A stretch of 64,000 nt of DNA. Source: a virus. The stretch lies in the IMG/VR virus record IMGVR_UViG_3300032298_001311, positions 62,001 to 126,000 of that record; one strand, 5' to 3'. The translations under genes were made by a program, and so were the position numbers. Below, piece by piece: positions 15,872-59,929 of the stretch (the stretch's first letter is position 1; each line of letters opens with the position of its first letter). Below the pieces are notes generated by a model. The model had not been told where the DNA came from. It saw nothing but the letters and a program-made list of their open reading frames with translations, and made no database searches.

Positions 15872-15884
15872 ATCATACCTCTGT

Positions 15885-16200: not shown

Positions 16201-16213
16201 AACAATGATGAAT

Positions 16214-16244
16214 TATTTATAGCAGTATATTAAAAATAAGTCAA
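16214..16244 (-). promoter_or_regulatory. tmRNA promoter
   Basis: Minus strand TTGACT (16239-16244), 17-nt spacer, TATAAA (16216-16221) within an exact TATAAATA (16214-16221). The -35 box overlaps the stop of the upstream tail gene. Both host-type and late-type recognition are possible. Confidence 0.65.
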
Positions 16245-20164: not shown

Positions 20165-20433
20165 TATACGAATCCTCTTAATTCATTTAATTCAATTTGT
20201 TCTTTTAATACCGCTGGATCTTGATTTTTCAATCCTTCGTATCCGCCAGGAACAAAAACGTCTCCATTAAGATATAATTGTGGAACACTTTTATGTCCAG
20301 CTTCTTTAATCATGTTTAAAGAAACATCGTCTTGTGTTACATCAACGACTTCGTATTCTATCTTATTTGAATCAAGCCAACTCTTTGCAAGTTCACAATG
20401 AGGGCAATTTGGTTTTGAATAAACTGTTAGCAT
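20164..20433 (-). CDS. grx: Glutaredoxin
   Basis: 89 residues, thioredoxin fold. Redox motif Cys10-Pro-His-Cys13 in YSKPNCPHCELAK; the cis-Pro motif SVPQLYLNG and a GGYEGL glutathione-site loop are present. It would reduce the C-terminal Cys pair of the adjacent NrdA. The gene order nrdA-nrdB-grx on one transcript matches T4-like phages. Confidence 0.93.
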   Translation of the reverse strand: MLTVYSKPNCPHCELAKSWLDSNKIEYEVVDVTQDDVSLNMIKEAGHKSVPQLYLNGDVFVPGGYEGLKNQDPAVLKEQIELNELRGFV

Positions 20434-20441
20434 ATAAACTC

Positions 20442-21554: not shown

Positions 21555-21568
21555 CTTTTTCTTATTCC

Positions 21569-23878
21569 TTATATTTTACAACTTTCGCAATCTTCTTCGA
21601 TGAGTTCAGCCTGTTGCGAATCTGGTAACTCTTCCCCCACGAGCTTATTAACATTTAGCTCGCCTTGTCCGTCATACGAATTAAAATAATATAACTGTTT
21701 TCCACCTAATTTGTAAAACATTAAGACATGTTGGAGCATAACGCTCATTGGAATTTTTTCATCTGCAAAGAATTGTGGATTATAACTTGTATTGACACTA
21801 ATACCTTGATCGATATATTTTTGCAAGATAGCACAAATTTTTAGATATCCTTCTGGACTTTGTTGATCCCAAAGCAATTCGTACTTATTCTTAAGACGAC
21901 GATACTCCGGAACGACTTGCTTTAGAACACCATGCTTGCTCTGTTTAATTGAAATATATGAACGAGGCGGCTCTATACCATTTGTTGCATTAGCAATCTG
22001 TGCCGATGTCTCAGCAGGCATTAGAGCCATAAGTGTAGCATTTCTGATTCCGTGTGTTTTTAATTCTTCTCTTAATTTTTCCCAAGGCATACGTTCAATG
22101 TAAGGTACTAATTCATCAATATCTTTTTTGCGTGTATCGATAGGTACAATGCCCTTTGCATACTTTGTATCTTCTGGCTTACCACATGTGCCTTGCTCTT
22201 TGGCGAGGTCGACGCTGGCTTTAATTAGATAATAACTCCATGCTTCTGCATATTCGTCAATTTTTACCAATGCATCTGTATCAGAATAACTTAAATCATT
22301 CTTAGCAAGCCAATAAGCGAGATTAATAATACCAACACCAAGTGGACGATATTCTTTAGTTGCTATATCAGCAGCCTTAACAGGATAACTTTGATAACTC
22401 AACAGAGCATCGAGTCCTCTTACTGCTAATGCACAAGGTTTTTCAAAATCTTCTGGGTCTCTAATATTTCCCCAGTTGATGGCACTCAATGTACATAATG
22501 CAATACGACCATCTTCGTCGAAAATATTGGTTAGTGGTTTTGTTGGTAAATCAATTTCACAGCAAAGATTACTTTGTTTAATTGGAGCAACCTTTTCATC
22601 AAACGAACTGTGTGTATTTGCATTATCAACATTCATAAGATAGATACGTCCTGTATCTTTTCTTTCTTTCATAAATGCTGAAAATAAATCGATAGCTTTA
22701 ACTTTCTTCTTACGAAGCTTTGAATTAGACTCTGCTTTTTCATACAGTTCAGCAAATTTATTTTGATCACTAAAAAACGCTTCGAACATATCAGGTACGT
22801 CATTAGGACTAAACAAAGTTATATCACCTCCCTTTATCAATCGTTGATAGAACAGTCTACTAAACTGTACCCCGTAGTCCATATGACGCACCCTATTGTC
22901 CTCGATGCCCTTACTGTTTTTAAGGACAAGGAGATCTTCAACTTCGTAATGCCATATTGGATAATACAATGTGGCCGCACCATTACGAACTCCTCCTTGC
23001 GAACAGCTTCTAACTGCCGCTTGGAACATTTTGTAGAAAGGTATAACACCTGTGTGACTTGTGTCACCGTTACGAACTGGAGAGCCTAATGCTCTAATTC
23101 TTCCTGCTCCTAACCCAATGCCTGCTTTCTGCGAAACATACTTTACTATAGCAGAAGTTGTGGCATTGATGCTATCTAAACTATCATCTGTTTCAATTAA
23201 AACGCATGAACTAAACTGACGCTGTGGTGTACGAACACCTGCCATAACAGGTGTAGGCAATGAAATGTCATGTGTAGAAATTGCTTCATAGTATTCTCGG
23301 ATCCAATGCATACGTGTTTCTTTTGGATACGCATGAAATAGTGTAGCAGCGATTAACAAATATGATACTTGGGGAGTTTCGAGTATCTGTCCTGTTACAC
23401 GATTTTGTACAAGATACTTTCCTCGCATTTGTTCCATAGCAACATATGTAAGATCCATGTCTCTTTCATGTTTAATATATGACTCTAATTTAGTCCATTC
23501 ATTTTCTGCATACCAATTAATTAATTCATTTGTATAATAACCTAATTGAACATTTCTTTTTACAAGTTCTAACAATGAAATAGGTTTGTAATCGTTATAA
23601 ACTTCTTTGCGTAATGCATAATTAATGAGTCTACCTGCAACATATTGATAATTAGGTGCTTCTTCAGAAATAAGGTCAGCTGCGGCTTTAATAAGTGTTT
23701 CTTGAATATCTGTAGTCTTTATATTATTATAAAATTGTAATTGTGACTTAATTTCTAATTCACTAGCACTAACTCCAGTTAATCCTTCAGTAGCCCAAAA
23801 GACAACACGATGTATCTTGTCTAGATTTAGATCTTCTTTTCTTCCGTCCCTTTTTATAATTGTTATGCGTGAACTCAT
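21569..23878 (-). CDS. nrdA: Ribonucleotide reductase class Ia, alpha subunit
   Basis: 769 residues, close to E. coli NrdA (761). An N-terminal ATP-cone (ITIIKRDGRKEDLNLDKIHRVV) indicates dATP feedback control. Cys225 in QFSSCVLIE, Cys in NLCCEIDLP and the C-terminal CESC pair are the redox-active cysteines; PAETSAQIANATNGIEPP is the radical-transfer loop region. It converts rNDPs to dNDPs for phage DNA synthesis. A CATAAATA box lies about 63 nt upstream. Confidence 0.96.
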   Translation of the reverse strand: MSSRITIIKRDGRKEDLNLDKIHRVVFWATEGLTGVSASELEIKSQLQFYNNIKTTDIQETLIKAAADLISEEAPNYQYVAGRLINYALRKEVYNDYKPISLLELVKRNVQLGYYTNELINWYAENEWTKLESYIKHERDMDLTYVAMEQMRGKYLVQNRVTGQILETPQVSYLLIAATLFHAYPKETRMHWIREYYEAISTHDISLPTPVMAGVRTPQRQFSSCVLIETDDSLDSINATTSAIVKYVSQKAGIGLGAGRIRALGSPVRNGDTSHTGVIPFYKMFQAAVRSCSQGGVRNGAATLYYPIWHYEVEDLLVLKNSKGIEDNRVRHMDYGVQFSRLFYQRLIKGGDITLFSPNDVPDMFEAFFSDQNKFAELYEKAESNSKLRKKKVKAIDLFSAFMKERKDTGRIYLMNVDNANTHSSFDEKVAPIKQSNLCCEIDLPTKPLTNIFDEDGRIALCTLSAINWGNIRDPEDFEKPCALAVRGLDALLSYQSYPVKAADIATKEYRPLGVGIINLAYWLAKNDLSYSDTDALVKIDEYAEAWSYYLIKASVDLAKEQGTCGKPEDTKYAKGIVPIDTRKKDIDELVPYIERMPWEKLREELKTHGIRNATLMALMPAETSAQIANATNGIEPPRSYISIKQSKHGVLKQVVPEYRRLKNKYELLWDQQSPEGYLKICAILQKYIDQGISVNTSYNPQFFADEKIPMSVMLQHVLMFYKLGGKQLYYFNSYDGQGELNVNKLVGEELPDSQQAELIEEDCESCKI

Positions 23879-23940
23879 GGTTATATCCTTATTCAGAAGC
23901 TATTTTTAATTTTATGAACTGCTCGTCGAAACAAGTCGAA

Positions 23941-23948
23941 TATTTATG
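23941..23948 (-). promoter_or_regulatory. Late-type box upstream of nrdA (CATAAATA)
   Basis: CATAAATA on the minus strand 62 nt before the nrdA ATG. The 190-nt gap to the next gene (23879-24071) also holds TATAATAGGTATTAT (about 24007-24021), a possible early -10 box, and no ORF. Confidence 0.4.
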
Positions 23949-24071
23949 AGAGTGGTGGACGGGATATTCTAGTAGTATATTTCTCTGTCTCAAAGTGATA
24001 AATTGTCTCATAATACCTATTATACTAATTCGATATGCATTTGTATAGTATTAATTACCTTAAGGCAACCA

Positions 24072-24503
24072 TTATGAGTAATTTTTCAACATAGGATAAG
24101 ATGCTTGTATTATTATATCTAAAGGTAGTTCTTCTTGTAATATAGCACGGTTGTAAAAATAGCCAATTACATGATCGTCTACAAATAACAAATATCGTAA
24201 TTCGTGTGCTTCTCGATCGTTTACTATTTGTATTTCAAAATAACTATCTTTGAATCTATCAGTTAAAGAAAGTGTGTAGTATATTGCAAGAATTTTTGAA
24301 AATTCACAATAATGATTATCTTCAATTAATGTCCAAGGGTCGAGCCAGGATGTTTGATTAAACGGGTCACAGGATAATGCACTGATTGGCGCTTTATTCC
24401 AAAAGTCTATAGTTGCTTGAATAGGATCAAAATGATCTTCGAGATTCTTTCGAAATTCAAACCAATAACTAAGTCTAGTTTCAAACTTCTCAAAGAAAAT
24501 CAT
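24072..24503 (-). CDS. Conserved phage protein (143 aa)
   Basis: Tryptophan- and acidic-rich protein (FWNKAPISALSCDPFNQTSWLDPWTLI) with no catalytic motif I can name. The composition and its site next to the tail fibre gene resemble small T4-like marine phage proteins of unknown function. It starts 9 nt after the tail fibre stop. Confidence 0.65.
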   Translation of the reverse strand: MIFFEKFETRLSYWFEFRKNLEDHFDPIQATIDFWNKAPISALSCDPFNQTSWLDPWTLIEDNHYCEFSKILAIYYTLSLTDRFKDSYFEIQIVNDREAHELRYLLFVDDHVIGYFYNRAILQEELPLDIIIQASYPMLKNYS

Positions 24504-24512
24504 TAATATAAA

Positions 24513-26165
24513 CTAAGTTCCTTTTGCTAAAGCACGGTAAGAATAACTCATAACACCAACGCCGTTTCCTGTAGGATTCCATAATTTAAGCACTAATGTT
24601 TCTTTATATCCGTCACCGTCGTAGTCTTGTAAAGCAGATGAAAATTCTATATTTTCAACTGTAGTGCTTCCGCTGTAGGTGTAATTATCTTCTAAATGAT
24701 ATTTATTAGTGTATAAATTAGCAGTTATATGAATAGTTCCTGTTCTTACAGATGAACCTCCACTATTTTTGTGAATAATATATTCAATAATATATATAGA
24801 AGATTCGTGAATTGGAAAACGGAAAAATTCTATTGGAACACTAGGTGTAGTTTCTAAAGGTCTAGTAAATGATGTAGGATCTATAACAAGTCCGCTAGTT
24901 CTAATATTAGAATAAAATGGAATAAGGCCAAAATTTGTTTGGTCTCTTAATTTATCATTCCTTTCAAAAAAATCATTACTACTTTGATTATTAGGAGTAT
25001 CATATCTTATAATTGGATATGTAGCACTTGCATGTCCTTCGTTATTATTTCCTACAAGCATAAATTTATTATTTGAGCTAGTATTCCCAAAACCAATTTT
25101 TATATATATTCCATAACGATCAATTAAATCAAAGTAACAGCTATCAACTTTTGTATTTACAGCACCAAATACAGAATTATCAATATCTCCTGATTGAATA
25201 CCATCATATAATTGATAAAATTGACAATTTTGAAAACTTATATCATTATGATCTGTATCGGAGAAAAATCCAAATCCTGTCTTATTAAAAATACAAGATA
25301 AAAATTGTACATTTTCGGATCTATGAATACCTGAAGTTCCTCTAGCATATATCCCTGTTTGCATTTCTACATCAATGGGAGAAGTTCCTTTTGGTTGAAT
25401 TCCGTTAACCCAAGATCCTAAAAACTTTACTTGATTGAAAATTGAGCTATCAGTATTATCTAAAAGAACAATAGTATCACTATGATCTGTTTGTAATGTT
25501 AATTTTTCAATAGTTATAAATCTAGGACGTGACTCGGTATAAGACATACTTTCAAATGGTGTATAAACTCCAGGAGTGCTTACGCCATCAACCATACGCA
25601 TTAAAGATCCATATGATCCTGTCCCTGTTAAATGTATAATTGTACTATCGATTCCAGCCCCCATTATATGACAATAAGGAGGAATTTTTAATTCTTCCGA
25701 AATAAAATATTCACCAGGACCAAAATATAGTATAACTCTAGTATCTGGATTTCTATTAGCAACATTCAAATATAATTGGTCAATTGCCCTTTGTATATCT
25801 TCAGTGACATCATCTCCTCTTTCTACACTCTTTTCATATATAAAGGATTTAATATCTACTCTTTCATCAAATCTTTGTTGTAATGTTCTTTGTACAGGTT
25901 GTAGATCTGTTGGACCAGTCTTAATAATGTAATTATTTCTTTGATATTGGTAAGCCTCTGCAAAATCTAAAATATTTACATGTTCTGTAAGGATTTGTGT
26001 ATTACCAACGTATGGAGCACCCTCGGAAACTGATCCATTTCCTATATAAAGTTCTTGAGTATCTATAGCCCAGCCTATTTCGCCACTAGCTAACTGTGGA
26101 AATCCTGTAGCAGAATCTTTTCTACCTCTACGTTGCTGAATGCGTGAAATCTGGACGACAGCCAT
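24513..26165 (-). CDS. Tail fibre/tailspike with beta-helix
   Basis: 550 residues. The N-terminus (ISRIQQRRGRKDSATGFPQLASGEIGWAIDTQELYIGNG) is the Mtd-type N-terminal domain that attaches fibres to the baseplate. Residues about 90-400 are a right-handed parallel beta-helix of pectate-lyase style (RVILYFGPGEYFISEELKIPPYCHIMGAG, then repeated short strands with Asn/Asp turns). The C-terminal 130 residues are a separate beta domain. It probably binds or depolymerises a host surface glycan. Confidence 0.82.
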   Translation of the reverse strand: MAVVQISRIQQRRGRKDSATGFPQLASGEIGWAIDTQELYIGNGSVSEGAPYVGNTQILTEHVNILDFAEAYQYQRNNYIIKTGPTDLQPVQRTLQQRFDERVDIKSFIYEKSVERGDDVTEDIQRAIDQLYLNVANRNPDTRVILYFGPGEYFISEELKIPPYCHIMGAGIDSTIIHLTGTGSYGSLMRMVDGVSTPGVYTPFESMSYTESRPRFITIEKLTLQTDHSDTIVLLDNTDSSIFNQVKFLGSWVNGIQPKGTSPIDVEMQTGIYARGTSGIHRSENVQFLSCIFNKTGFGFFSDTDHNDISFQNCQFYQLYDGIQSGDIDNSVFGAVNTKVDSCYFDLIDRYGIYIKIGFGNTSSNNKFMLVGNNNEGHASATYPIIRYDTPNNQSSNDFFERNDKLRDQTNFGLIPFYSNIRTSGLVIDPTSFTRPLETTPSVPIEFFRFPIHESSIYIIEYIIHKNSGGSSVRTGTIHITANLYTNKYHLEDNYTYSGSTTVENIEFSSALQDYDGDGYKETLVLKLWNPTGNGVGVMSYSYRALAKGT

Positions 26166-26193
26166 ATATAATACTCCGAAGTGTTTTATATAT

Positions 26194-26871
26194 TTAGTTG
26201 TTCAGATAATACTGCTCCACCCGGCGCCACCACTTATCGCGCCAATAATCATACTTGTCTTCTGTTAAATCAAATTGTTGGTATACCAAATCACGACTGC
26301 ACATAAAAACATGTCCATGGCGTATTTTACTATTGTAAACTTCATTATGAGCTTCTGCATATGCTATAAGTTGTAGATAGTAATCTTCAATCCACTCTTC
26401 TTTTTTAGGCTTATTAGTCTGCTTAAAATCCATGATACATTCATTGCCTTTAAAAACACCCGGCAAGTCTGTAGCACCAGCATATATCTGAGGGAAATAA
26501 AGACTAACTTCACTGCCCCATATTTCATCAATATGACACATTGCTTCGTCACGAATTCTTTCCGCCATTTTATGTGCTTGTTGAGAATAAGGGTTAGTAC
26601 CTGGGTCAGGCCAGTCTCCTGTAGCAATATATTTTTCAAGGAAGGTATGCATCCTTGTCCCAACACCTGCTGCTTCTGTGACAATTTCTTGTGCTTTCTT
26701 TTCACCTACACGTTTACGCCACTCTATTAAATGAGTCTTGTCTTTAGTACTATCAAGAATCGTAGTTACAGAAGGTACCTTATTTCCATCTGGACACTCG
26801 TAGAGTCTTTTACCATTTTCTGATTTGCGATTAATTGGGGTATAATCAAACCGTGGTTTTATTAGGGTCAT
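26194..26871 (-). CDS. PD-(D/E)XK exonuclease (RecB/MGME1-like)
   Basis: 225 residues. VPSVTTILDSTKD and the helix VGTRMHTFLEKYI lead to the catalytic core GATDLPGVFKGNECIMDFKQTNK, where Asp, Asp and Lys form the PD-(D/E)XK site; a QLIAYAEAH helix with Gln follows. Such phage proteins act in DNA recombination or degradation. A promoter (26879-26907) lies 8 nt upstream. Confidence 0.85.
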   Translation of the reverse strand: MTLIKPRFDYTPINRKSENGKRLYECPDGNKVPSVTTILDSTKDKTHLIEWRKRVGEKKAQEIVTEAAGVGTRMHTFLEKYIATGDWPDPGTNPYSQQAHKMAERIRDEAMCHIDEIWGSEVSLYFPQIYAGATDLPGVFKGNECIMDFKQTNKPKKEEWIEDYYLQLIAYAEAHNEVYNSKIRHGHVFMCSRDLVYQQFDLTEDKYDYWRDKWWRRVEQYYLNN

Positions 26872-26878
26872 TGTTTAC

Positions 26879-26907
26879 ATTTTAACTTCTATCGAAATAA
26901 AGGTCAA
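26879..26907 (-). promoter_or_regulatory. Sigma70-like promoter of the PD-(D/E)XK nuclease gene
   Basis: Minus strand TTGACC (26902-26907), 17-nt spacer, TAAAAT (26879-26884), with the -35 box at the stop codon of the previous gene. Confidence 0.6.
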
Positions 26908-27239
26908 CCAACTCGGCGTTTTGCAGCATTTTTAGCCATTTTAGAAATACTAGTTTCTTTTTCGCCGCCTTGTGACTTTTTAGGATCTGTACCATAAGTT
27001 TTAAGTTCAACACCTCTATCGTCAAACTTGAAAACTAATTTCTGTATCATTGGGGAAGCATCATATTGTGCTTTGAAACTTTCGTAATCAAACTGTTCAT
27101 CGCCAACATTCTGCATAAGATTGTTTAAAGCAGCCCAATTAAGAAAACTAGGCTGCTGCTTACTATTTGCTTGTGCTACTAAATTTCTTAAAAGTAGCAC
27201 GAGATTATTACTTACGGCTTCTACTTCAGTTATTCTCAT
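26904..27239 (-). CDS. Conserved phage protein (111 aa)
   Basis: Begins MRITEVEAVSNNLVLLLRNLVAQAN; acidic helical protein with a basic tail (KNAAKRRVG). I recognise its type from T4-like marine phages, where it follows the head protein encoded upstream. Its ATG overlaps that gene's stop. No function known. Confidence 0.7.
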   Translation of the reverse strand: MRITEVEAVSNNLVLLLRNLVAQANSKQQPSFLNWAALNNLMQNVGDEQFDYESFKAQYDASPMIQKLVFKFDDRGVELKTYGTDPKKSQGGEKETSISKMAKNAAKRRVG

Positions 27240-28357
27240 CTGCCAACTAAAAGTTTTGTAAGACGTAGACGATGCTCAATGCTTTCTCTCTTAGCGCGAT
27301 CTGCTGGAGCAGCAACATCTATATCCATCTCTGCATCATCTGTTGGCATCTCTGCATCTAATTCTGCGTCCATGCCTGGTTCCATATCCATGTCCATTCC
27401 TGCATCCATGCCTGGCTCTGCTCCCATTGGAGTTGGAGCAACACCTGTTAGTGATGCAACTGAACCGTTAAGTGCTTCACGTGCGCCCTTAACTGACTGG
27501 AAAGCTGCGTCTAGTGCAGGTTGAACTGAAGCAGTAAATGCTTCTGCTTGGTCTGCACCTAGCTCGTCACGAATAGCATCAGCCATTTCCATAGCAGTCT
27601 GTGCCTGCATCTGAGCAATATCTTCTGACCAACCAGTGAACTTATCAACCATATCCTTGACAGCCATAATTAGTTCTGCCTTTGATTCTTCACCTTCGCG
27701 AAGTAAACGTGATATTGATTCCATTACAGATTCCTTTACCTTCTTCTTATCTTTAGCAGCCTTCTTCATAGGCTCTTTCTTGTTATTATTTTTATTAAGA
27801 TCTAGAAAGTCTGGCTTTGCTGCTTCCTTAACAGGATATGTCTTTCCACCAACTTTAATCTTTTCACCAGGTTGAATATCATTTTCTTTAGCTTTACTAA
27901 CTGCTAGACCGAAAGCATTACCCTCGTTTGGTGATTCGTCAGTCTTCTTATGCTTTGGAAGTCCCTTGTGCTTTGTGCCAGCAAACTTCTCAAGTTCCTT
28001 TGTACTCATTCCTGCCATTGACTTTGATGGTCCCTTAAGACCTGCTGTAGAACCCTTACGCTTTGCTGTTAGAGCAGCACCAGCAGCCTGTTGTTGAGCT
28101 TTACTTACAGCTCTTTCACTAATTGTAGTTCTAACAATATCCTGCATGAGCTTTAGGCGATGAAATTCTTCACTTTCTAAAGTCTCATTAAACTTGCCCT
28201 TTTTAAGAACAGAAATACGGCTTTCGATCAATCTTGCTGCCTTTTCTAGTTGTGCTGAATTATAGCTGTCAATATCAAGTTTTTCCCCGAAATGCTTACT
28301 AAGGGTCTCGTTCATAACCTTTGCAGTTGGTTTAGTTGTAAAGTCGCTGGTTCTCAT
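27236..28357 (-). CDS. Conserved head-associated or scaffold-like protein (373 aa)
   Basis: Starts MRTSDFTTKPTAKVMNETL. Three parts: an N-terminal helical region (20-95), a Lys/Gly-rich linker with PDFLDLNKNNNKKEPMKK (about 185), and a C-terminal helical part with a Met/Asp/Glu-rich low-complexity stretch (MDAGMDMDMEPGMDAELDAEM, in part) and the end EHRLRLTKLLVGR. The linker motif recurs in T4-like marine phage virion proteins. A scaffold or prohead-core role is a guess. GATAAATA and AGGAAAC lie upstream. Confidence 0.65.
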   Translation of the reverse strand: MRTSDFTTKPTAKVMNETLSKHFGEKLDIDSYNSAQLEKAARLIESRISVLKKGKFNETLESEEFHRLKLMQDIVRTTISERAVSKAQQQAAGAALTAKRKGSTAGLKGPSKSMAGMSTKELEKFAGTKHKGLPKHKKTDESPNEGNAFGLAVSKAKENDIQPGEKIKVGGKTYPVKEAAKPDFLDLNKNNNKKEPMKKAAKDKKKVKESVMESISRLLREGEESKAELIMAVKDMVDKFTGWSEDIAQMQAQTAMEMADAIRDELGADQAEAFTASVQPALDAAFQSVKGAREALNGSVASLTGVAPTPMGAEPGMDAGMDMDMEPGMDAELDAEMPTDDAEMDIDVAAPADRAKRESIEHRLRLTKLLVGR

Positions 28358-31718: not shown

Positions 31719-32240
31719 ATGCCAAATACTTTATTGCTGAATGCTGATGCTCAACCAATGAGTTTAGTTCCACTGTCAGCTATTGATTGGCAAAGTGCGG
31801 TACGCTACATCTGGCTCGATAAAGTTAAAGTTCTACACGAATACGAGGAATGGCAAATTCACAGTCCAACTCATGTTATGAATGTACCTGCTGTGATTAT
31901 GCTCAATGAATATTGGCAACCAAAAGCCCGTGTGCGTTTCAATCGTAAATGGGTTTTCTTGCGTGACAATTATACTTGTCAATATTGCGGTGATCAACTT
32001 AATGTGAGTCAGTGTACAATTGATCATGTTGTTCCGGTTTCAAAAGGTGGTAAGACTACCTGGCATAATGTTGTTACGGCTTGCTACCCTTGTAATAATA
32101 GCAAAGGTAACAATCCAAAAATTCGTCCAAAGATAGATCCAGAGCAGCCAAATTATTGGATGCTGGCTAACAATCGTAAACAGAAGAGTTGGACTGTTCC
32201 TCACGAAAGTTGGCTAAATTATATTGATGGAAGATTTTGA
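31719..32240 (+). CDS. HNH endonuclease
   Basis: 173 residues. C-terminal half holds the HNH core: CQYCG zinc pair, TIDHVVPVSKGG (catalytic His of the beta-beta-alpha metal motif), WHNVVTACYPCNN with the second zinc pair. The N-terminal half (LLLNADAQPMSLVPLSAIDWQSAVRYIW) is the usual companion of free-standing bacterial HNH proteins. It may be a homing-type nuclease or act in packaging or host DNA cleavage. It lies under a full consensus promoter and overlaps the radical SAM gene by 14 nt. Confidence 0.88.
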   Translation: MPNTLLLNADAQPMSLVPLSAIDWQSAVRYIWLDKVKVLHEYEEWQIHSPTHVMNVPAVIMLNEYWQPKARVRFNRKWVFLRDNYTCQYCGDQLNVSQCTIDHVVPVSKGGKTTWHNVVTACYPCNNSKGNNPKIRPKIDPEQPNYWMLANNRKQKSWTVPHESWLNYIDGRF

Positions 32241-33084
32241 ACGACCTAAAACCAGAATACAATGGATGCTAGGCAATAATTGCAATTACGATTGTAGTTA
32301 TTGTCTAGACCTCTTTAAAAGAGGAGATTATTCAGCGCCCGATGAAGAATTATTTTTAGAAATTTGTAAAGATATCATTTATCATTATGATGATTTAGGA
32401 AATGATGTTGTCTTTGAATTCATAGGTGGTGAGCCAACATTAACTGAAAAAATTCCAGACATTGGGCAAAGACTACATAATTATCCAACAAGTATAATAT
32501 TAAGAACGAATGGTAGTGCTAGTTTAGATTGGTGGCTAAAATCAAGTAGGTATCTGTCTGAAGTAATAATATCTGTGCATCGAGAATTTGCTGACATAGA
32601 ACATATCATAAACGTAATTAAATTATTAAAAGAATCTAAAAATATGCATCCTATCGAAGTTAAAGTTTTATTTCCGGTAACAGTTAGACCAGAGAGCTGG
32701 AATTGGGGAATATCTCATGTTAAAAAATTTAGGAAAAGATTTGGAGTTGGTGAATTACAGTTACTTTATAGCAATTTCGGAAGAAAAAGTGACACGCTAC
32801 TTCCTTATAAAGAAGAACAATTAAATCAAATAGGTAAAAGTTCTATAGTAACTAACCAAAGTAGTGTAAAGACAGATCCATTTAATTATAAAGGAAAAAC
32901 TTGTTATGCAGGAATTGATACTCTAGTTATTGATGCAATTGGGGATATTTTTAGAGGCTGGTGCTTACAAGAAGGTAAAATTGGTAATATTTACAAAATG
33001 CCCGTTGCATGGCCAAAAACTACAATTATCTGCCAAAAAGAATCTTGCAAAAACGGTTTTGACCAATCAGCAAAGAAAATTTAA
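32227..33084 (+). CDS. Radical SAM protein A (plus strand)
   Basis: 285 residues. The 4Fe-4S motif is Cys19-Cys23-Cys26 in CNYDCSYC; the SAM-binding GGEP motif follows in FEFIGGEPTLTE, and later SVHREFAD. The C-terminus has three Cys (GWC, ICQKESC) that could bind a second cluster. It is closest in layout to radical SAM protein C at 55132-56094. The ATG at 32227 is preferred to the TTG one codon earlier. It is coupled to the HNH gene. Substrate unknown. Confidence 0.85.
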   Translation: MEDFERPKTRIQWMLGNNCNYDCSYCLDLFKRGDYSAPDEELFLEICKDIIYHYDDLGNDVVFEFIGGEPTLTEKIPDIGQRLHNYPTSIILRTNGSASLDWWLKSSRYLSEVIISVHREFADIEHIINVIKLLKESKNMHPIEVKVLFPVTVRPESWNWGISHVKKFRKRFGVGELQLLYSNFGRKSDTLLPYKEEQLNQIGKSSIVTNQSSVKTDPFNYKGKTCYAGIDTLVIDAIGDIFRGWCLQEGKIGNIYKMPVAWPKTTIICQKESCKNGFDQSAKKI

Positions 33085-33323
33085 CTATAATCAGGTAAAG
33101 GCCCGCCGTGCTTTTTGCCTTTTATAATTTTACCGTCTATCTTTTTTCGATTCTTACCAACACGTTGAGTTTTTCCACTACGATGAGAGAGAAATCCTTG
33201 ACTAATACAGGATGATAGTTGACTAGCTCCTATGTTTCTACCCTTCTTTGCTTTATTACAAAGAGCTTTAGAAGCTGGTCCTTCTTCGTCTGTTATAGAG
33301 TTGGCGAATTCATATAATCTCAT
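33081..33323 (-). CDS. Small basic protein with MRLYEF leader (80 aa)
   Basis: Begins MRLYEFANSI (capsid-targeting-like leader), then two Cys and a Lys/Arg/Gly-rich body ending KKHGGPLPDYS. The basic composition suits a DNA-associated internal head protein. ATAAATA ends 5 nt before the ATG. It converges on radical SAM gene A, sharing 4 nt. Confidence 0.65.
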   Translation of the reverse strand: MRLYEFANSITDEEGPASKALCNKAKKGRNIGASQLSSCISQGFLSHRSGKTQRVGKNRKKIDGKIIKGKKHGGPLPDYS

Positions 33324-33331
33324 AAAAATAT

Positions 33332-34039
33332 TTATCTAGATTTGATATAGTTATTAGCTCTAACTAAATCTTCTTCAGTATTAACTTCGGGAGGAACTAC
33401 ATTAGTTTTGAGAGCAGCAATCTTATATCCAAGCTCTATCCATCTCAATTGTTCAAGATTTTCTGCAATTTCGTGAGGTGTTCTTTCATTAGATAACAAC
33501 ATTAGATTTTGTCTTTTGTAAGCATAAACACCTACATGATGATATCCATAACTCAAGGCACTTCTACAAAACCAATGTGCTCTCATAATATTTGGATCTA
33601 TGTCTGATGCAACTTGACAACAAATTGCTTTAACAGTATTGATATCATTTTGTCCTCCAGGACTCATTTCGTGAACAAGAGTAGCAACATCTGCTCCTGT
33701 TCTTTCTAGAGTAATAGCAGCATCAACTATTTGATAAGGATCAATAAAAGGCAAATCACCTTGACAGTTTACAATTATATCTTCATTAAAATCATTAGCT
33801 GCCCATGCTATTCTGTCAGTACCTGTTGCACAAGCTTCTGGGGTTAATCTTACGTCCCAGTGAGGGAATTTTTCTTTAAGATCAGGACTATCTGTTAGAA
33901 CAGTAACGAGATAGTCAGTAGCACAAGCTCTAGCATGAACATGTTCGATAAGAGTCTTTTCGCCTATCATAGCTAAAGGCTTGTTAGGTAATCTTGTGCT
34001 TTGCATTCTTGCTGGTATTACGATTCGCATTGTGGGCAT
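33332..34039 (-). CDS. kdsB: CMP-KDO synthetase-like cytidylyltransferase
   Basis: 235 residues with the KdsB signature: IVIPARMQSTRLPNKPLAMIG (CTP-binding loop), LTPEACATGTDRIAWAA, VNCQGDLPFIDP and a late NTEEDL. KdsB activates 3-deoxy-manno-octulosonate with CTP for lipopolysaccharide inner core; related enzymes activate other sugar acids. No KdsA/KdsC/WaaA is in the window. KdsB genes occur in other marine phages. It may feed surface-glycan modification with the epimerase downstream, which is inference. Confidence 0.85.
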   Translation of the reverse strand: MPTMRIVIPARMQSTRLPNKPLAMIGEKTLIEHVHARACATDYLVTVLTDSPDLKEKFPHWDVRLTPEACATGTDRIAWAANDFNEDIIVNCQGDLPFIDPYQIVDAAITLERTGADVATLVHEMSPGGQNDINTVKAICCQVASDIDPNIMRAHWFCRSALSYGYHHVGVYAYKRQNLMLLSNERTPHEIAENLEQLRWIELGYKIAALKTNVVPPEVNTEEDLVRANNYIKSR

Positions 34040-34067
34040 TTGGATTTTCTCTCTTATAAGTATTCGG

Positions 34068-34388
34068 ATGTTGAGTTACATTTATATAATCGGATCAGAC
34101 AAACCTCCTTACAAAATTGGAATAAGCAGAAATCCAGAACGTCGTTTGAAAAACATTCAAACAGGACATCCTCATAAATTACAGATTTGGGAATTAAGAG
34201 AGACAGATTCAAAGAGAACAAAATTATTAGAATCTGTCATTCACAAGCATCTCGTTAATTATAGAATGACAGGAGAGTGGTTCAATATTCCTTTAGAGGA
34301 AGCAAAACATCATGTTGATTTTGCTTTAATTAGATACGAAGATGATCCATTGTTAGAACATCTGGTAAAAAATAAATTAATTAGATGA
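34068..34388 (+). CDS. GIY-YIG-like protein (Mug113/T5orf172 type)
   Basis: 106 residues: MLSYIYIIGSDKPPYKIGISRNPERRLKNIQTGHP is a compact GIY-YIG-related core (Y-I-x-I ... YKIGIS ... R), and HKHLVNYRMTGEWF near the middle is typical of the Mug113/T5orf172 family. These are predicted nucleic-acid-binding or nuclease domains. The ATG at 34068 is chosen because the open frame before it overlaps the kdsB start on the other strand. Confidence 0.75.
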   Translation: MLSYIYIIGSDKPPYKIGISRNPERRLKNIQTGHPHKLQIWELRETDSKRTKLLESVIHKHLVNYRMTGEWFNIPLEEAKHHVDFALIRYEDDPLLEHLVKNKLIR

Positions 34389-35621
34389 ATTCATCCATTT
34401 AATTAAATCTGGTTCTAATATATCTTCATAATTTTCTAATCTATATGTATCAAGTTGTTTTGTTATTTTTACCAATTCTAATTTAAGAAATTCATTATCT
34501 AAGTTATGGGGTGAATTCATAAATTCGATAATTCCTTGGTATTGAGAATTAAAATGGTTTCTAAATCTTTCTTCTAAACAATTTATATGATATCTAAATT
34601 TTTCTTCAATTTTAATTTTAATATCTTTTGGTAATATTTGAATATTATAATAATTAGGATAATTTAAAATATTGTTTATTAGAATTTTATCGTGTGGCAC
34701 TCCTAATAGTAAAAGTTTATCAACTAATAAAGGAATATTGAAAATATTAAAAATTTGTGTAGTGGTGCTTATTCCTAATATAGATGGATTAAAATCTAAA
34801 ATTGTCTTTATATTTTTTTCGATAATTTTCCAATTTGTCCCACTTCTAATGTATTCCCCAATTCTATCACTACCGTCAATCGATGCATAAACTGATAAGT
34901 TATTTTCAAAATATTTCCAAAAATCTATAATATTTCTTCCTTTGTATTCTAATTTACTAATATTTGTATTATATCTTAATTTTACATAATTTCTATTTCG
35001 ATTAATTAATTCTTCTAAAATAAAATAATGTTCATCCATTAATAACGGCTCGCCACCAGCAAAATATATCTCCTCAACAACATCTATAAATTCTAACAAA
35101 TATTCTTTTATTGATTTTTTAGAATAATTGTCTATATGTATAAGTCTTGGGTCATTAATTGTTCCCCCTATACTTTCATTTAATTTTAAATGATCATCAT
35201 ACCAACTGCTACTTAATCTGCTCCCACACATTCTGCATTTAAAATTACAAATATTGCTAAATCTAAAATCCCAATAGATTAAATTAAATTTAGAGTATTC
35301 TCCGTCAATGTTTGTGTCTTCTACTGCTGATTTTATATGACTTGCAAAATTTTTATTAGATTCTTTTCTAAAACTATCTAAACCCAATTCTTCATTTAAA
35401 TAACACCTATCACAACTAGGATGTTTGGTACCATTAAGCATAGATTTTCTTAATGATTTAAGATAATCATTATTCCAAATTTCTTCTAATGACTGTTTTT
35501 TTGTATTCCCGCAACTATTTTTCCATTCTGTAGTACAACATTGATAAACATCGCCATTTGGCCAAATGTTTAGATGTATCCAAGGAAGTATACAAAATGT
35601 ATTGTTTATGGAGTTGTTCAT
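34377..35621 (-). CDS. Radical SAM protein B with N-terminal Cys module
   Basis: 414 residues. The order FCILPWIHLNIWPNGDVYQCC, SCDRCYLNEELG (extra Cys), then the radical SAM motif Cys125-Cys129-Cys132 (CNFKCRMC) and YFAGGEPLL. This is the phage/cyanobacterial 'twitch/SPASM-like' type in which an auxiliary cluster module precedes the radical SAM barrel. It is much more AT-rich in codon choice (Asn, Ile, Lys) than neighbours. Related to the proteins at 56079-59929. Substrate unknown. Confidence 0.87.
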   Translation of the reverse strand: MNNSINNTFCILPWIHLNIWPNGDVYQCCTTEWKNSCGNTKKQSLEEIWNNDYLKSLRKSMLNGTKHPSCDRCYLNEELGLDSFRKESNKNFASHIKSAVEDTNIDGEYSKFNLIYWDFRFSNICNFKCRMCGSRLSSSWYDDHLKLNESIGGTINDPRLIHIDNYSKKSIKEYLLEFIDVVEEIYFAGGEPLLMDEHYFILEELINRNRNYVKLRYNTNISKLEYKGRNIIDFWKYFENNLSVYASIDGSDRIGEYIRSGTNWKIIEKNIKTILDFNPSILGISTTTQIFNIFNIPLLVDKLLLLGVPHDKILINNILNYPNYYNIQILPKDIKIKIEEKFRYHINCLEERFRNHFNSQYQGIIEFMNSPHNLDNEFLKLELVKITKQLDTYRLENYEDILEPDLIKWMNSSN

Positions 35622-44994: not shown

Positions 44995-45219
44995 TTAGGA
45001 CCACCTCAATAAGAACATAGCATAATCTGTTTCTAATTCAAAGTACCAGATACTAAAATAATTGTGCCATTTACCATGTAAGTGTTTATCTGCCCACTCT
45101 CTCATTACCTCATTAGTTTTTATCATATTTTCAATAGTGCTATAAGCATAGGAATAATGATGCCATCCCTTAGTTTCTGTTAGGTGGTCTGTTAGTTTCT
45201 GTAAGTCATCATTACTCAT
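44995..45219 (-). CDS. Hypothetical small protein, RWS-tail family (74 aa)
   Basis: MSNDDLQKLTDHLTETKGWHHYSYAYSTIENM, ending ELETDYAMFLLRWS. The end is shared with 47464-47700 (DITCFLMRWS) and loosely with 42686 and 47258. The final codons AGG TGG TCC form a Shine-Dalgarno-like sequence for the next gene. Overlaps the GGCT gene by ATGA. Confidence 0.65.
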   Translation of the reverse strand: MSNDDLQKLTDHLTETKGWHHYSYAYSTIENMIKTNEVMREWADKHLHGKWHNYFSIWYFELETDYAMFLLRWS

Positions 45220-55131: not shown

Positions 55132-56094
55132 TTATCCTTTATCCTTAGGAATTATTATATCGGTTCCACAAGTACAATGATACTTATTACAAATTATTTT
55201 TAAAGGAGCAACCTTTGATACATCGCCTAAAATGTGACCAATCATACTTCCTTGGCCACAACTTGCCGCGCTCACATTTCCTCTCGGATTGATAAAAATA
55301 CTGTCTCCAATATTACATTTCCACCCTTGGAAGAAATTTAAACCTCGGACGATTAAATCGTTTGAGTTAACTGGTGCTATCTTATTATCACTATATCTAG
55401 CATAACTTACACAATTATTTTCTTTATAAGGTTTTGATTTAGTAAAGTTCATTTCTATATTATGATTTTTAATCCATTCTTGTTTATCAGGATCATTGTA
55501 CTTCCACGGACCGGCATTTATACTTAATTCGTCAAATAAAGGTGTCCATTCTAAAAAATAATTTGGTAGTTCTCTCTTTAATTTTTCTCCAAATTCTACA
55601 ACTTCCCAAAATCTTTCTTCGTGCATTAATAATTTTGATGAAAGATAATTAATCTTATCACATAGAAAAAAAGTATTATTGAAATATTTTTCTTTGTCAG
55701 CAAATTCTATATGAAAACTTGCTACAATGTCGTCAATCAGATGATAATTATTTTCCCACCACTTTAAAGGTCTACTCAAATTAGTATTAACTGCAATAGT
55801 GCAATCAGGTAGTACAGATTTTAACCATTTAACTATTGGAAGAAAGTTCTTCCAAGCAGTTGGTTCTCCACCGCTGAAAAAGAATTTAAAATCGTTGTAT
55901 CCGACATCTTTATATTTGTCAATAATAATTTCAAGATTTTTTATGTATAGAGATACATCCTCTTCATTCCGATCTCTTCCACTCCAATTACCTGGATTAC
56001 AATAACTACACTTATAATTACAGAAATTATTAACTTGCCATGTTACTGCTAGATAAGGCTTTTTAGATTCAATTGCAATTAGATCTGCGACCAT
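55132..56094 (-). CDS. Radical SAM protein C
   Basis: 320 residues. 4Fe-4S motif Cys25-Cys29-Cys32 (CNYKCSYC) near the N-terminus, FFFSGGEPTAW for SAM, SFHIEFADKE, and C-terminal Cys residues (NCVSYARY, GWKCNIGD, AASCGQGSM, CNKYHCTCG) that could bind auxiliary clusters, as in SPASM proteins. Like protein A, it lacks the N-terminal Cys module of proteins B, D, E and F. It overlaps the upstream gene by 16 nt. Substrate unknown. Confidence 0.88.
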   Translation of the reverse strand: MVADLIAIESKKPYLAVTWQVNNFCNYKCSYCNPGNWSGRDRNEEDVSLYIKNLEIIIDKYKDVGYNDFKFFFSGGEPTAWKNFLPIVKWLKSVLPDCTIAVNTNLSRPLKWWENNYHLIDDIVASFHIEFADKEKYFNNTFFLCDKINYLSSKLLMHEERFWEVVEFGEKLKRELPNYFLEWTPLFDELSINAGPWKYNDPDKQEWIKNHNIEMNFTKSKPYKENNCVSYARYSDNKIAPVNSNDLIVRGLNFFQGWKCNIGDSIFINPRGNVSAASCGQGSMIGHILGDVSKVAPLKIICNKYHCTCGTDIIIPKDKG

Positions 56095-57332
56095 TCGTAA
56101 ACCTCTCGTAATTCTGGTAGAGCATCGAATAACTTTTCTTTTCTAACTTCGTCTAATTCGTCATTAAACGAAAAGAATTGTTTAATTCCATCTTTGTTTT
56201 CTTCTCCAGATTTAAGAGTATTCAATACAGTTTTATATGCATTTCTGATTGATTCAGAATATGACAAATCTCTAAATACGTCGTCGTACATTGATGCTAT
56301 TCTATCTCTATAAAATTGTGGTAAAATTAATATAGAACAATACCAAGGATTAGTTAATATATTCAATCTAACTTCTCGATCCTTGTGTAAAAATCCTTTT
56401 TCAATCCAATCTTTATGGAATTGTGGAAACTGATGAAGATTCCAAATAGAAATTGTAGGAGTTAGTTCAAATCTTATGTGTGGAACTTCTTTTAAAATCA
56501 TTCTAGCATTTTCTTCTATTTGATTCCAATCGGTACCTTTTCTCATAAATTCAGCCAATGGTCCGCTTGCATCTAAACTAGCGTAAATTTCAACAAACTG
56601 AAATTTTCTCCAATACTTTAAAATATCTTTATTTTTATAATTCAATTGGCTAAAGTTTGTAGTATACGTAATTCTTACATCTGTTTTATTATGTTCTAAC
56701 CAATAGTCTAATATTTTATAATGTTCTGGAGTAATTAATGCCTCACCTCCAGCAAAATAAACTTCATCAACATCGAGCAAATGCGGTTTTAGTTTTTCCC
56801 AGAACGATCCATCATCGTTATTGCTAACAACTATTTTTTCTAAACCGAAACGAGTTTTTAATCTAGCTTCACCATATCTTTCTCGGTATTCAGATGCCCA
56901 TTGACTACTACAGGAAGGTCCACAACTACGACATTTCATATTACAAATATTACTAAAACGAATATCCATATATTTTAATTCAAATTTGTCTATACTACCA
57001 TCGTCATTCGTAGCATTTACTTGATCCAAATTTGCAATACCTCTTACAGTATTTTGACTTTGTCTTAAACTCCAAGTTCCAAATAGTTCTACATCATAGC
57101 ATCTTTTACATATATCACTAGGAACATCATTAAGCATGTTTAATCTTAATTCTTTAAATTTTTCCGAATTCATCATATCAAGGAGAGTATCATGTTCGGT
57201 CAAATTTGTTAGAGGTTTAGATGAATCAGCCATACAGCAAGGAAAAACTTTACTATCTGGCCAAGCATGGAAATGTAACCAAGGAAGTATGCAAAAGTTT
57301 TTTGTATAAAAAATATCTTCAGAGGCTTTCAT
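56079..57332 (-). CDS. Radical SAM protein D with N-terminal Cys module
   Basis: 417 residues. FCILPWLHFHAWPDSKVFPCCMA and ICKRCYDVELFG form the N-terminal Cys module; the radical SAM motif is Cys130-Cys134-Cys137 (CNMKCRSC), then YFAGGEALI where the usual GGEP is GGEA. SLDASG is kept. It follows AAGGAG and overlaps protein E's end by 14 nt. Confidence 0.88.
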   Translation of the reverse strand: MKASEDIFYTKNFCILPWLHFHAWPDSKVFPCCMADSSKPLTNLTEHDTLLDMMNSEKFKELRLNMLNDVPSDICKRCYDVELFGTWSLRQSQNTVRGIANLDQVNATNDDGSIDKFELKYMDIRFSNICNMKCRSCGPSCSSQWASEYRERYGEARLKTRFGLEKIVVSNNDDGSFWEKLKPHLLDVDEVYFAGGEALITPEHYKILDYWLEHNKTDVRITYTTNFSQLNYKNKDILKYWRKFQFVEIYASLDASGPLAEFMRKGTDWNQIEENARMILKEVPHIRFELTPTISIWNLHQFPQFHKDWIEKGFLHKDREVRLNILTNPWYCSILILPQFYRDRIASMYDDVFRDLSYSESIRNAYKTVLNTLKSGEENKDGIKQFFSFNDELDEVRKEKLFDALPELREVYEWSQI

Positions 57333-58578
57333 ACCAACTCCTTAATTCTGGAAATGTTTCAACAAATAATTCATTACGAACTCTATCAATTGTATCAATG
57401 TGTGACTTCATAATATGATTAGGTATCGGAGTATCTTCTAAAGGTTGTGCCATATATTCCTTAATCTCATTAAGTCTATCAACTAATCCTCCGGATATAT
57501 TCCATTCTCTTTGTTTAATATAATTGTTAATCTTGTCAATTCCGGTAGCTCTTAATTCTAAAGGAAGATGTTTTAATGATTGCCACGAAGGTGTTATTTG
57601 TCTATAGAGGGTTGCTCTGCTAGTCAAAGGATCAAACAATCCTCTATCTTCGAGATCCTCAAGAAAGTCAGTTATGGTCATACAATTCCATAATCCTACT
57701 ACAGCATTATATTCAATCTTTACATTAGGGCATTCATTCTTAATTTTTGTTAAATTAAAAACTACTTCGTCCCAATTAGTACCGCTTCTAATATATTCTG
57801 CTCTTTTGCCCCAACTATCAATACTCGCATAAAGATCTATTTCTTTAAAGTGCTTCCAATAGTCAATAATGTTTTTGCTTTTATAATTTAAAACACTAAC
57901 ATTACTGTTATATCTTAACAATGCTTCTGTTGAGTTATTTTCTATTAAAAAGTCTAATATCTTATAATGTTCAGGAGTAATTAAAGGTTCGCCGCCTGCA
58001 AAATAAACCACCTTCATAAATGGTAGATGAGGTTTAAATTGTTCTAATAACTGATCATTATTATTAGTTGCTTTTATAAAGACTTGATAGTCCGGATTAT
58101 CTTTTTCCCAATTTGCCTTTGCTTCTTGAGCCCAAGCAGAAGAAAACCAATCCCCACAAGTCCTACATTTAAAATTACAAATGTTACTCCATCTAACATC
58201 GAAATATCTTAATTTCATTTCATCAATGGAGCCATCCTCGTTAGTTTCTTCAACTTGAGTTATAAACTCTTCGAAGTCTCTATTTGCCCATTGTCTAAAT
58301 GATGTAGGAGATTGATCGTCAGCAGTAGCATTTTCGTGAATATAACAAGTTTCACAATGTGGCGACTTTTTTCCTTGTAACATATTCAATCGAAGTTGTT
58401 TATATTCTTCACTATTCCAAACTTCTTCAATTGTATTAGTTCTAACATTACCTAGAGGAAAATCATATTTTGCTGTGCAACAAGGATATACATCACCAGT
58501 TGTATTGATATACTGGTGTATCCAAGGCATTATGCAAAATGATGGATTATTGAATAATTCTTCTTTATCTATTTTCAT
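57319..58578 (-). CDS. Radical SAM protein E with N-terminal Cys module
   Basis: 419 residues. FCIMPWIHQYINTTGDVYPCCTA and HCETCYIHENA, then Cys134-Cys138-Cys141 (CNFKCRTC) and YFAGGEPLI. Clear paralogue of B and D. ATG 58578 (MKIDKEEL) is favoured over the GTG at 58590 because GGGA lies 7 nt upstream. Confidence 0.88.
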   Translation of the reverse strand: MKIDKEELFNNPSFCIMPWIHQYINTTGDVYPCCTAKYDFPLGNVRTNTIEEVWNSEEYKQLRLNMLQGKKSPHCETCYIHENATADDQSPTSFRQWANRDFEEFITQVEETNEDGSIDEMKLRYFDVRWSNICNFKCRTCGDWFSSAWAQEAKANWEKDNPDYQVFIKATNNNDQLLEQFKPHLPFMKVVYFAGGEPLITPEHYKILDFLIENNSTEALLRYNSNVSVLNYKSKNIIDYWKHFKEIDLYASIDSWGKRAEYIRSGTNWDEVVFNLTKIKNECPNVKIEYNAVVGLWNCMTITDFLEDLEDRGLFDPLTSRATLYRQITPSWQSLKHLPLELRATGIDKINNYIKQREWNISGGLVDRLNEIKEYMAQPLEDTPIPNHIMKSHIDTIDRVRNELFVETFPELRSWYESL

Positions 58579-58579
58579 A

Positions 58580-59929
58580 TTAATTCCCACATGAATCGTA
58601 AAATGTTTTCATCTCTGGAAAAGTTTCTTTAAAGTTAGTTCCACGTCGTCTATCATATTCATCGAACCACTTATAAAAGTCAACTTGACCTTCTATTATT
58701 TTTTCAAATGGATACTTTGTAGTTTCCATATACTTAACAACTCTTCTAAACTTTTCAATTTCTAATTGTGAAAATTTACAAGGATCATTATCATCGTGAT
58801 TGTTCATCATAAATTCTAAAGACTCATACATGTAAGGCATGAATTCATCTTTTGGAAGAATATTCATATCATATTGTAACGGTTCTTTCAAATAAGGAGT
58901 ATCGAATTTAATTTTATCTCCTCCATATTTCTTACGCCATAGAAGTATTCTTTCTAATAATGATTTAAAACTAGTAACAGTTAAAATATTAAATGTAATC
59001 ATAAGACGTATAGGATTGTTTGTTGAAGTAAGATAATGATCTAAATTCTTTTCCCAAACATTTAAGTCTAAACCTGTTCTAATATATTCTGCTCTAGGTC
59101 CCCAAGTATCTATACTAGAGAATAGACTAAAATTTCTAATCTTATTTTCGTCTTGTAGCTTTTTTATTTTAGTTGTCATTCTTTCTACAAGAATATTCTT
59201 TATTCCTAGATTACTGTTAATATTGAGTTCTAACCAAGGCAATGGCTCTTCATCAATTGACTCTAACAGTTTCCATGTACTATTCTGTAATAATGGTTCG
59301 CCACCTGTTATTCTTAAAATGTTAAGTGTTTTCTTAACTTCTGGCCACCACTTCCACCATGCATCTACATAAGGATTTTCTTCTTCCTTATGATATATCT
59401 TAAACCAATCAATATCGTTTCTATGATTCTTTACAGCTCGATAAGGACCGTGTTGTTCTATTTCCTTATAATAAGAACTAGATGCTTTTGGGTGACAATA
59501 TCCGCATTTAAAATTGCATTCGTGGCCAAAACTTATTTCAATATATTCTGGATTTATATTGCCATCCCAAGATAAATTCTTTATTTCTTTAAATCGTTCT
59601 TCGGTAAAGATACTAGCATTTCGTTCATGCCGATCACTTACATAATCAGACCCTAATTCTTCGATATTCCAACAATACTTGCATCCTGCTGGTTTCTCAC
59701 CATCTAACATAGCTTTTCTTTGTATTTTCTTTTCGTTAGTGTTATGTAAAGCACTAGGGTTATTTTGTAATTCAGTTAGAGGTATTGAGTGAGGAGCCGG
59801 ATGATAACAACTATGTGTTTCTCCTGTTTGAAGATAAATGGTAGTATGATGCCATTTTGCTAAACAAAAAGTACAGCTTATGGAATCGGTGATTTTTTTG
59901 ATTTCTTGAATTTTATTAATGTCTGACAT
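58580..59929 (-). CDS. Radical SAM protein F with N-terminal Cys module
   Basis: 449 residues. SCTFCLAKWHHTTIYLQTGETHSCYHP and GCKYCWNIEELG, then Cys138-Cys142-Cys145 (CNFKCGYC) and LRITGGEPLL. It is the most divergent of the four, with an insert at about 165-185 (DIDWFKIYHKEEE). It is the first gene of the tandem set; the stop is one base from the next ATG. Confidence 0.88.
   Translation of the reverse strand: MSDINKIQEIKKITDSISCTFCLAKWHHTTIYLQTGETHSCYHPAPHSIPLTELQNNPSALHNTNEKKIQRKAMLDGEKPAGCKYCWNIEELGSDYVSDRHERNASIFTEERFKEIKNLSWDGNINPEYIEISFGHECNFKCGYCHPKASSSYYKEIEQHGPYRAVKNHRNDIDWFKIYHKEEENPYVDAWWKWWPEVKKTLNILRITGGEPLLQNSTWKLLESIDEEPLPWLELNINSNLGIKNILVERMTTKIKKLQDENKIRNFSLFSSIDTWGPRAEYIRTGLDLNVWEKNLDHYLTSTNNPIRLMITFNILTVTSFKSLLERILLWRKKYGGDKIKFDTPYLKEPLQYDMNILPKDEFMPYMYESLEFMMNNHDDNDPCKFSQLEIEKFRRVVKYMETTKYPFEKIIEGQVDFYKWFDEYDRRRGTNFKETFPEMKTFYDSCGN

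Follow-up and report, generated by a model that had tools for sequence, protein, structure and literature searches.

The stretch of viral DNA analysed here, which we call the window (64,000 nucleotides; bases 62001-126000 of the 128,772-base virus record IMGVR_UViG_3300032298_001311), carries on its minus strand four consecutive genes for radical S-adenosylmethionine (SAM) proteins, F, E, D and C, followed by genes for an SGNH-hydrolase-like protein, an epimerase/dehydratase (EPI) and a glycosyltransferase-like protein (GTX) (Table 1). The overlapping tandem order noticed in a first-pass annotation was borne out: F and E overlap by 11 bases, E and D by 14, and D and C by 16, the first value hinging on the GTG start of E, since an ATG at codon 5 would instead leave a 1-base gap. 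Behind C, the SGNH-like gene follows after 1 base and EPI after 6 more, and GTX overlaps EPI by 4. Because of this tight spacing, the whole series from F through GTX is likely to be on one transcript. Upstream of F, a 115-aa open reading frame (ORF; 46 bases ahead of F), a TilS-like gene and others are closely packed, and a DNA ligase gene lies on this side as well. The window holds six radical SAM genes in all, as had been counted before, and the record encodes at least two further ones outside it.

Table 1. Radical SAM genes of the window and the genes that follow the F-E-D-C cassette (window coordinates)
Feature	Position	Strand	Basis or remark
Protein F, N-terminal-twitch radical SAM, 449 aa, ATG start	58580-59929	-	NF033640, Cys, fold
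Protein E, N-terminal-twitch radical SAM, 423 aa, GTG start	57319-58590	-	NF033640, PF13186
Protein D, N-terminal-twitch radical SAM with GGEA, 417 aa	56079-57332	-	NF033640, cluster Cys
Protein C, radical SAM, Cys-rich (SPASM/twitch-like) C-terminus, 320 aa	55132-56094	-	PF04055
SGNH-hydrolase-like protein, DUF6071, 253 aa	54369-55130	-	PF19547
EPI, NAD-dependent epimerase/dehydratase (extended short-chain dehydrogenase/reductase), 332 aa	53364-54362	-	PF01370
GTX, GT-B-fold glycosyltransferase-like protein, 464 aa	51973-53367	-	AlphaFold model fold match
Radical SAM gene	32224-33084	+	fifth in window
Radical SAM gene	34377-35621	-	sixth in window

Families and conserved cysteines of the four proteins

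F, E and D belong, as separate branches, to the family NF033640 (N_Twi_rSAM), whose description names no reaction: they cover nearly the full model with 317.3, 372.5 and 363.2 bits, respectively, against a cut-off of 170, whereas C reaches only 35.7 bits and is not a member. On PF04055 (gathering score 29.5), E (31.1) and C (32.0) score above the threshold and D (28.4) and F (23.5) below it. In SPASM/twitch enzymes, the extra cysteine domain lies C-terminal to the barrel. The cassette shares the radical SAM barrel with these enzymes (SkfB, SuiB, anSME, PqqE, MoaA) and with sugar or aminocyclitol enzymes (BlsE, AprD4, DesII), and F, E and D also have an extra cysteine domain, putatively binding an Fe-S cluster, but N-terminal to the barrel. 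The SPASM profile PF13186 matches the N-terminus of E (residues 19-83, 2.6e-16) and that of D; F has no Pfam match to PF13186, yet keeps C22, C41, C83 and C86 in 75 of 75 homologues. The first-pass annotation had read an FCI(L/M)PW-type module in three of the proteins. This spelling is right for E (FCIMPW) and D (FCILPW), while F reads FCLAKW, the module itself being present, and in each of the three it is followed by G-x4-C and C-x2-C.

All three cysteines of the CxxxCxxC motif are kept throughout the homologues of F (75/75, as C138, C142 and C145), E (75/75), D (28/28) and C (35/35). In the same sets, E homologues all keep C19, C37, C79 and C82, and D homologues C14, C32, C33, C75 and C78. 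The cysteine-rich C-terminus of C, pointed out earlier, is likewise conserved: C260, C302 and C307 are present in 35/35 homologues together with C25, C29 and C32, and C279 and C309 in 26/35. Because these cysteines are conserved across homologues, the Fe-S clusters of all four proteins plausibly can form. Clusters that cannot form had been named beforehand as an argument against the proposal of sequential steps; what we find is that C38 of E (73/75) is the one cluster cysteine of F, E and D not kept in every homologue examined.

The GGEA of D was also read correctly. It occurs in 4 of 28 D homologues, beside GGEI (12), GGES (5), GGEP (5) and GGEV (2), and GGEP is found in 75/75 F homologues. 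We rejected GGEA as the mark of a dead enzyme, given that the motif is variable among D homologues and thus a subfamily trait. Redundancy of the four genes was rejected too, in agreement with the first-pass annotation, as F, E and D occupy distinct tree branches and C is a different radical SAM protein outside NF033640.

Conservation of the cassette in viral contigs

Viral contigs hold at least 557 relatives by the twitch alignment, at least 588 by F and at least 373 by C, and the best 80 loci were kept per scan. D lies directly upstream of C in 77 of the 80 C loci and within two genes in 79, and F lies upstream in 74, the remaining 6 having less than 7 kb of flank. Since dozens of other contigs repeat the order F-E-D-C, it is not due to chance. 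Neighbourhoods of F were counted in 70 dereplicated loci of 149, 49 of them with 6 kb of room. E is directly downstream of F in 34/70, and the contiguous run of radical SAM genes that includes F comprises one gene in 19 of the 49 loci, two in 10, three in 1, four in 10, five in 6 and six in 3. By these counts around F and C, F is the anchor of the cassette, with E (one to three copies) and the D-C pair as add-ons.

The gene after C belongs to the GTX family in 64/80 loci and to c26, a family of B12-binding radical SAM proteins, in 12/80. Within 6 kb downstream of C (63 loci), GTX is found in 61, an SGNH-like gene in 58, a B12-binding radical SAM gene in 50, EPI in 33 and a UDP-glucose-dehydrogenase-like gene (UGD) in 14, and 44 of the 49 F loci with room have at least one of GTX, EPI, SGNH-like or UGD in the 6 kb that follow F. 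The proposed link to sugar genes thus recurs in viral F loci, and homologues that are always single and unlinked from such genes, the other case named against the proposal, did not arise; Bdellovibrionota chromosomes speak in part against the link, as the homologues there often have no sugar genes close by. Judged by C, the cassettes closest to that of the window are L172 and L173, in which F-E-D-C and then SGNH-like genes lie downstream of a DNA ligase gene. At the ligase gene of L098, L100, L130 and L160, F stands without E, D and C and is followed by GTX-family genes, with EPI in L098 and L100.

Ahead of the cassette, most viral loci have a tail-fibre-like gene, a GT8-like glycosyltransferase gene (c2; glycogenin matches in a profile search of the Protein Data Bank, PDB) and a gene of family c3, whose assignment to GT2 is weak (3 of 11 members, best E 0.015; nothing relevant in the PDB profile search). 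That c3 lies directly upstream of F in 55/70 loci, with tail-fibre-like and GT8-like genes before it in many, would suit a cassette that modifies a protein or peptide, for example a tail-fibre or other virion protein encoded just upstream, which would then be glycosylated, the chemistry resembling that of ribosomally synthesized and post-translationally modified peptides. However, the genome of the window has its cassette away from the fibre gene (a fibre-like profile match at record 20111-27151). Families c2, c3, c4, c6 and c7 were not found by profile in this genome.

The fold of F bears on the same alternative. Its AlphaFold model (mean predicted local distance difference test score, pLDDT, 86.2) has the radical SAM barrel fold. 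In the VIA search, SkfB is the best match (Z 12.1), and SkfB, RlmN, BlsE and anSME are tied at Z 11.3-12.1 over about 220 barrel residues; matches at Z 10-12 include SkfB, SuiB, anSME, MoaA, BlsE and DesII, with AprD4 appearing in Foldseek only. Several structurally solved SPASM/twitch enzymes are peptide maturases, and one of them tops this list. Given that peptide-maturase and other matches are nearly tied in Z, the fold does not choose between substrates. BtrN is a radical enzyme of sugar/aminocyclitol type; its absence from the VIA match list of F excludes nothing. Profile searches of the PDB gave only weak radical SAM matches for F and C.

The first-pass annotation had asked for a conserved small precursor peptide; no general precursor emerged among the ORFs listed, small ORFs being seen in a minority of loci only. 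In two giant-phage contigs, arrays of overlapping small ORFs ending in LRW(S/G) lie between F and E (L249, 2244-4632; L233, 2583-4816), which speaks for a peptide. As a general precursor, these ORFs were rejected: 13 of 14,012 ORFs (up to 260 aa) end in this way, 12 in the two loci and 1 in the window. The last is a 74-aa ORF at 44995-45219 on the minus strand with no match in deposited phages. An alternative genetic code behind the arrays was also rejected, as table 15 left the ORFs unjoined. A small ORF of 56-103 aa between E and D was discarded as a general precursor as well, since in our survey of ORFs of at least 45 aa it occurs in 9/80 C loci (L210, L214, L216, L218, L222, L233, L235, L247 and L249). 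In addition, no PqqD/RRE domain was found in F, E, D or C (Pfam, E 0.01), with the proviso that divergent RREs can escape such a search. Taken with the position of the cassette away from the fibre gene, we regard modification of a protein or peptide as rather unlikely.

A B12-binding radical SAM partner

The genome of the window encodes a c26 member just outside the window (record 57636-59747), 58-65% identical to the six other members aligned, which go with C in other phages. Among records longer than 60 kb, this family is present in 32 of 33 with C versus 2 of 17 with F and no C orthologue in the locus (Fisher 9e-10, uncorrected for shared ancestry). Of 36 C records listed by eye, 33 were used, without L176, L231 and L239, and L135, which has a C-like gene, was left out of the F set; C-like genes that are only distantly related (about 80 bits) occur in several of the 17 F records, and the records include near-copies of one another. 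The lone C record without the B12 protein is L172, one of the closest relatives of the cassette of the window.

Some loci also contain genes for RmlC, a DegT aminotransferase, a 2-oxoglutarate oxygenase, a short-chain dehydrogenase/reductase, a UbiG-like methyltransferase and a KedN5-like B12-binding radical SAM protein; we count the RmlC, DegT, oxygenase and UbiG-like genes as further sugar-type neighbours. An alternative is that the product is a small diffusible or lipid-linked metabolite, similar to an antibiotic or aminocyclitol, which would aid host takeover and be glycosylated as a late tailoring step. Its arguments are the B12-binding protein c35, with a score of 259 bits on the KedN5 family (cut-off 700), the DegT gene, a gene in some loci that we take from its motif only to be amidinotransferase-like (no Pfam or NCBIfam match), and a carbamoyltransferase gene near D-C in one Bdellovibrionota locus. 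Such extra genes are nevertheless confined to a minority of loci (the amidinotransferase-like gene is within 6 kb of C in 3/63), and the annotated neighbours included no recognisable assembly-line genes, so that we consider a metabolite of this kind unlikely.

Sugar-type genes downstream of the cassette

The product of the gene next to C scores 39.2 bits on PF19547 (DUF6071), its sole match; no GDSL/SGNH family in Pfam matches it, and we take it to be an SGNH hydrolase by motif only. EPI is well above the cut-off of PF01370 (4.8e-43; 147.7 bits versus 20.9), with no NCBIfam equivalog above its own cut-off, and its exact reaction is not assignable. GTX has no family match in Pfam, NCBIfam or PHROG and nothing relevant in the PDB profile search, and none of 28 GTX members matches a glycosyltransferase family in Pfam at E 1, the GT10 profile included. 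Its AlphaFold model (pLDDT 74.8), however, has a GT-B fold, and the top match is the GT10 alpha-1,3-fucosyltransferase 2nzx (Z 14.3, root-mean-square deviation 4.4, 283 aligned residues), with an identity of just 10-11%.

T4 beta-glucosyltransferase (1qkj) is also among the fold matches of GTX (Z 12.5), which would be in line with hypermodification of bases in the phage DNA, GTX acting like the T4 enzyme. We consider this highly improbable. The fucosyltransferase fits GTX better and many other GT-B proteins match at Z 10-12, the record (possibly a fragment) has no match to thymidylate synthase/dCMP hydroxymethylase (PF00303), and the neighbours of the cassette are genes of surface-sugar type.

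Relatives in Bdellovibrionota

The F profile (1e-50) matches in 74 of 290 Bdellovibrionota genomes. In a scan of named genomes, F was found only in five metagenome-assembled genomes (MAGs) of this group, by patterns that would miss variants. C orthologues are present in 4 of the 74 F-bearing genomes, D adjoins C in all 4, and a third short twitch radical SAM gene lies on the far side of C from D. Near some homologues there is an SGNH/GDSL-like gene (L282) or carbamoyltransferase and methyltransferase genes (L283); a neighbour gene in L264 is presumably SGNH/GDSL-like, as judged by motif. Matches to the B12-binding protein occur in 6 of the 74 genomes at up to 258 bits, and L282 has at its edge a fragment of 81 aa that scores 33 bits. 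L262 and L266 each have several twitch radical SAM genes grouped on the chromosome; the eight of L262 lie beside what we assume to be ribosomal-protein and obg-like genes.

In a midpoint-rooted tree of 97 sequences (4 rows being second entries of MAG sequences), phage F is a single clade (0.918), which together with two Bdellovibrio-type MAG sequences (0.993) nests in a broader F clade of Bdellovibrionota (1.0). The phage E sequences group by themselves (0.995), while phage D reaches only 0.406 and the D nodes are without support. Gene exchange between Bdellovibrionota and phages, in one direction or the other, is likely.

Discussion

The four genes constitute a fixed radical-enzyme cassette. 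We suggest, with about even confidence, that it is part of a phage glycan locus and that its enzymes form a pathway of several radical reactions by which an unusual sugar-type unit is made for a glycan. F, E, D and C may plausibly act one after another on a single substrate, since D and C almost always occur together and F is also found alone, accompanied by glycosyltransferase and epimerase genes. F would perform the entry step on one sugar-type building block, and E and the D-C pair would follow with more radical reactions, which could be, for instance, a dehydrogenation, an epimerisation, a deoxygenation or chemistry at a C-C bond. The B12 enzyme may add a methyl group, or its reaction may be a related one; transfer of the unit to a glycan would fall to the variable GT-B proteins. 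The glycan could lie on the surface of the virion or of the infected host and serve in host recognition or in the exclusion of rival phages. The A-type Fe-S carrier of the phage (PF01521, record 27166-27492) may help to supply the clusters. In its most specific form, the proposal is that five radical enzymes (three with an N-terminal twitch, one with C-terminal cysteines and one binding B12), partly common to predatory Bdellovibrionota, build a sugar or other monomer of undescribed chemistry, which fast-changing transferases attach to give a variable surface signature; this we put forward tentatively, as doubtful on balance.

Over the 46 loci left after dereplication of 81 (the window and 80 others), median pairwise identities are 65.2% for F, 67.6% for E, 63.3% for D, 67.6% for C, 69.8% for c26, 72.8% for UGD and 70.5% for EPI, against 42.3% for c3, 24.5% for GTX and 18.8% for the SGNH-like proteins. 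This suits, without proving it, constant building-block enzymes beside variable transferases. Several points weigh against our reading of a sugar-type unit, beginning with this pattern: the medians of GTX and the SGNH-like proteins pool paralogous subfamilies and so exaggerate the contrast, and EPI, conserved among the other loci, is divergent in the window. Indeed, the proteins of the window are identical to the rest at 64% for F, 63% for C, 50% for D, 38% for E, 25% for EPI and 23% for GTX, marking both E and EPI as divergent here. The viral loci share ancestry, so that their counts are not independent events. F and D-C of Bdellovibrionota are mostly without glycosyltransferase or other sugar genes nearby, and no orthologue of the B12-binding protein was found in the four genomes of this group with C (1e-60). 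Only about 1 Z unit or less separates the peptide-maturase matches of F (SkfB, SuiB and anSME) from BlsE, RlmN, MoaA and viperin. Lastly, there is no match of the cassette to a characterised pathway at equivalog level.

Radical SAM genes in phages have been described before. T4-like pelagimyophages carry radical SAM cassettes and glycosyltransferases in a hypervariable cluster for fibres and host recognition, defined between the VrlC and gp14 genes (PMC7029224); the available part of that report names no order, partners or function for these cassettes, and the cassette of the window, in contrast, is not at fibre genes. The T4-like TARA_ERS488813_N000010 encodes an A-type Fe-S carrier in addition to its 12 radical SAM genes (PMC5332604). 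Like the phage of the window, it combines many such genes with a carrier, but in the part of the paper available they are treated as Fe-S cluster metabolism and not as a pathway to a product. No function is assigned to the present cassette in the accessible portions of PMC7029224, PMC5332604 and PMC10783043, the literature search having bioRxiv preprints outside its range. The cassette is thus a well-delimited new variant of a type of phage locus already noted. Among 50,697 deposited phage records, E matches 3 and F 2 (partially), at 23-25% identity. Vibrio phage K566 (L284), a deposited jumbo phage, is annotated with three clustered radical SAM genes, of which the closest to E shares about 23% identity with it.

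The genes of the cassette occur in hundreds of uncultured viral sequences, many of them aquatic, while the deposited phages gave only these few distant matches. With the parts list, the fixed order, the B12 partner and the cellular relatives now defined, the function is directly testable, and a new sugar or monomer, if true, would mean that the phage-host surface has a large chemistry still to be explored.

Other features of the window and record

Between the fifth and sixth radical SAM genes (window 32224-35621) lies a gene for a CMP-sugar-type cytidylyltransferase (33332-34039, PF02348). The T4-type late promoter TATAAATA has no copy upstream of the cassette. In the window, 6 matches stand against an expectation of 11.2; the six (7665, 9658, 15648, 16214, 42661 and 51433) are all minus-strand words, and several lie immediately upstream of ORFs. 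A permuted transfer-messenger RNA gene at window 15836-16239 on the minus strand encodes the tag ANDNFVASEIALAA, presumably alphaproteobacterial from its look. The end of the record (125421-128772) encodes a 3-hydroxyacyl-CoA dehydrogenase and a thiolase of fatty-acid oxidation, which may be either phage cargo or host flank.

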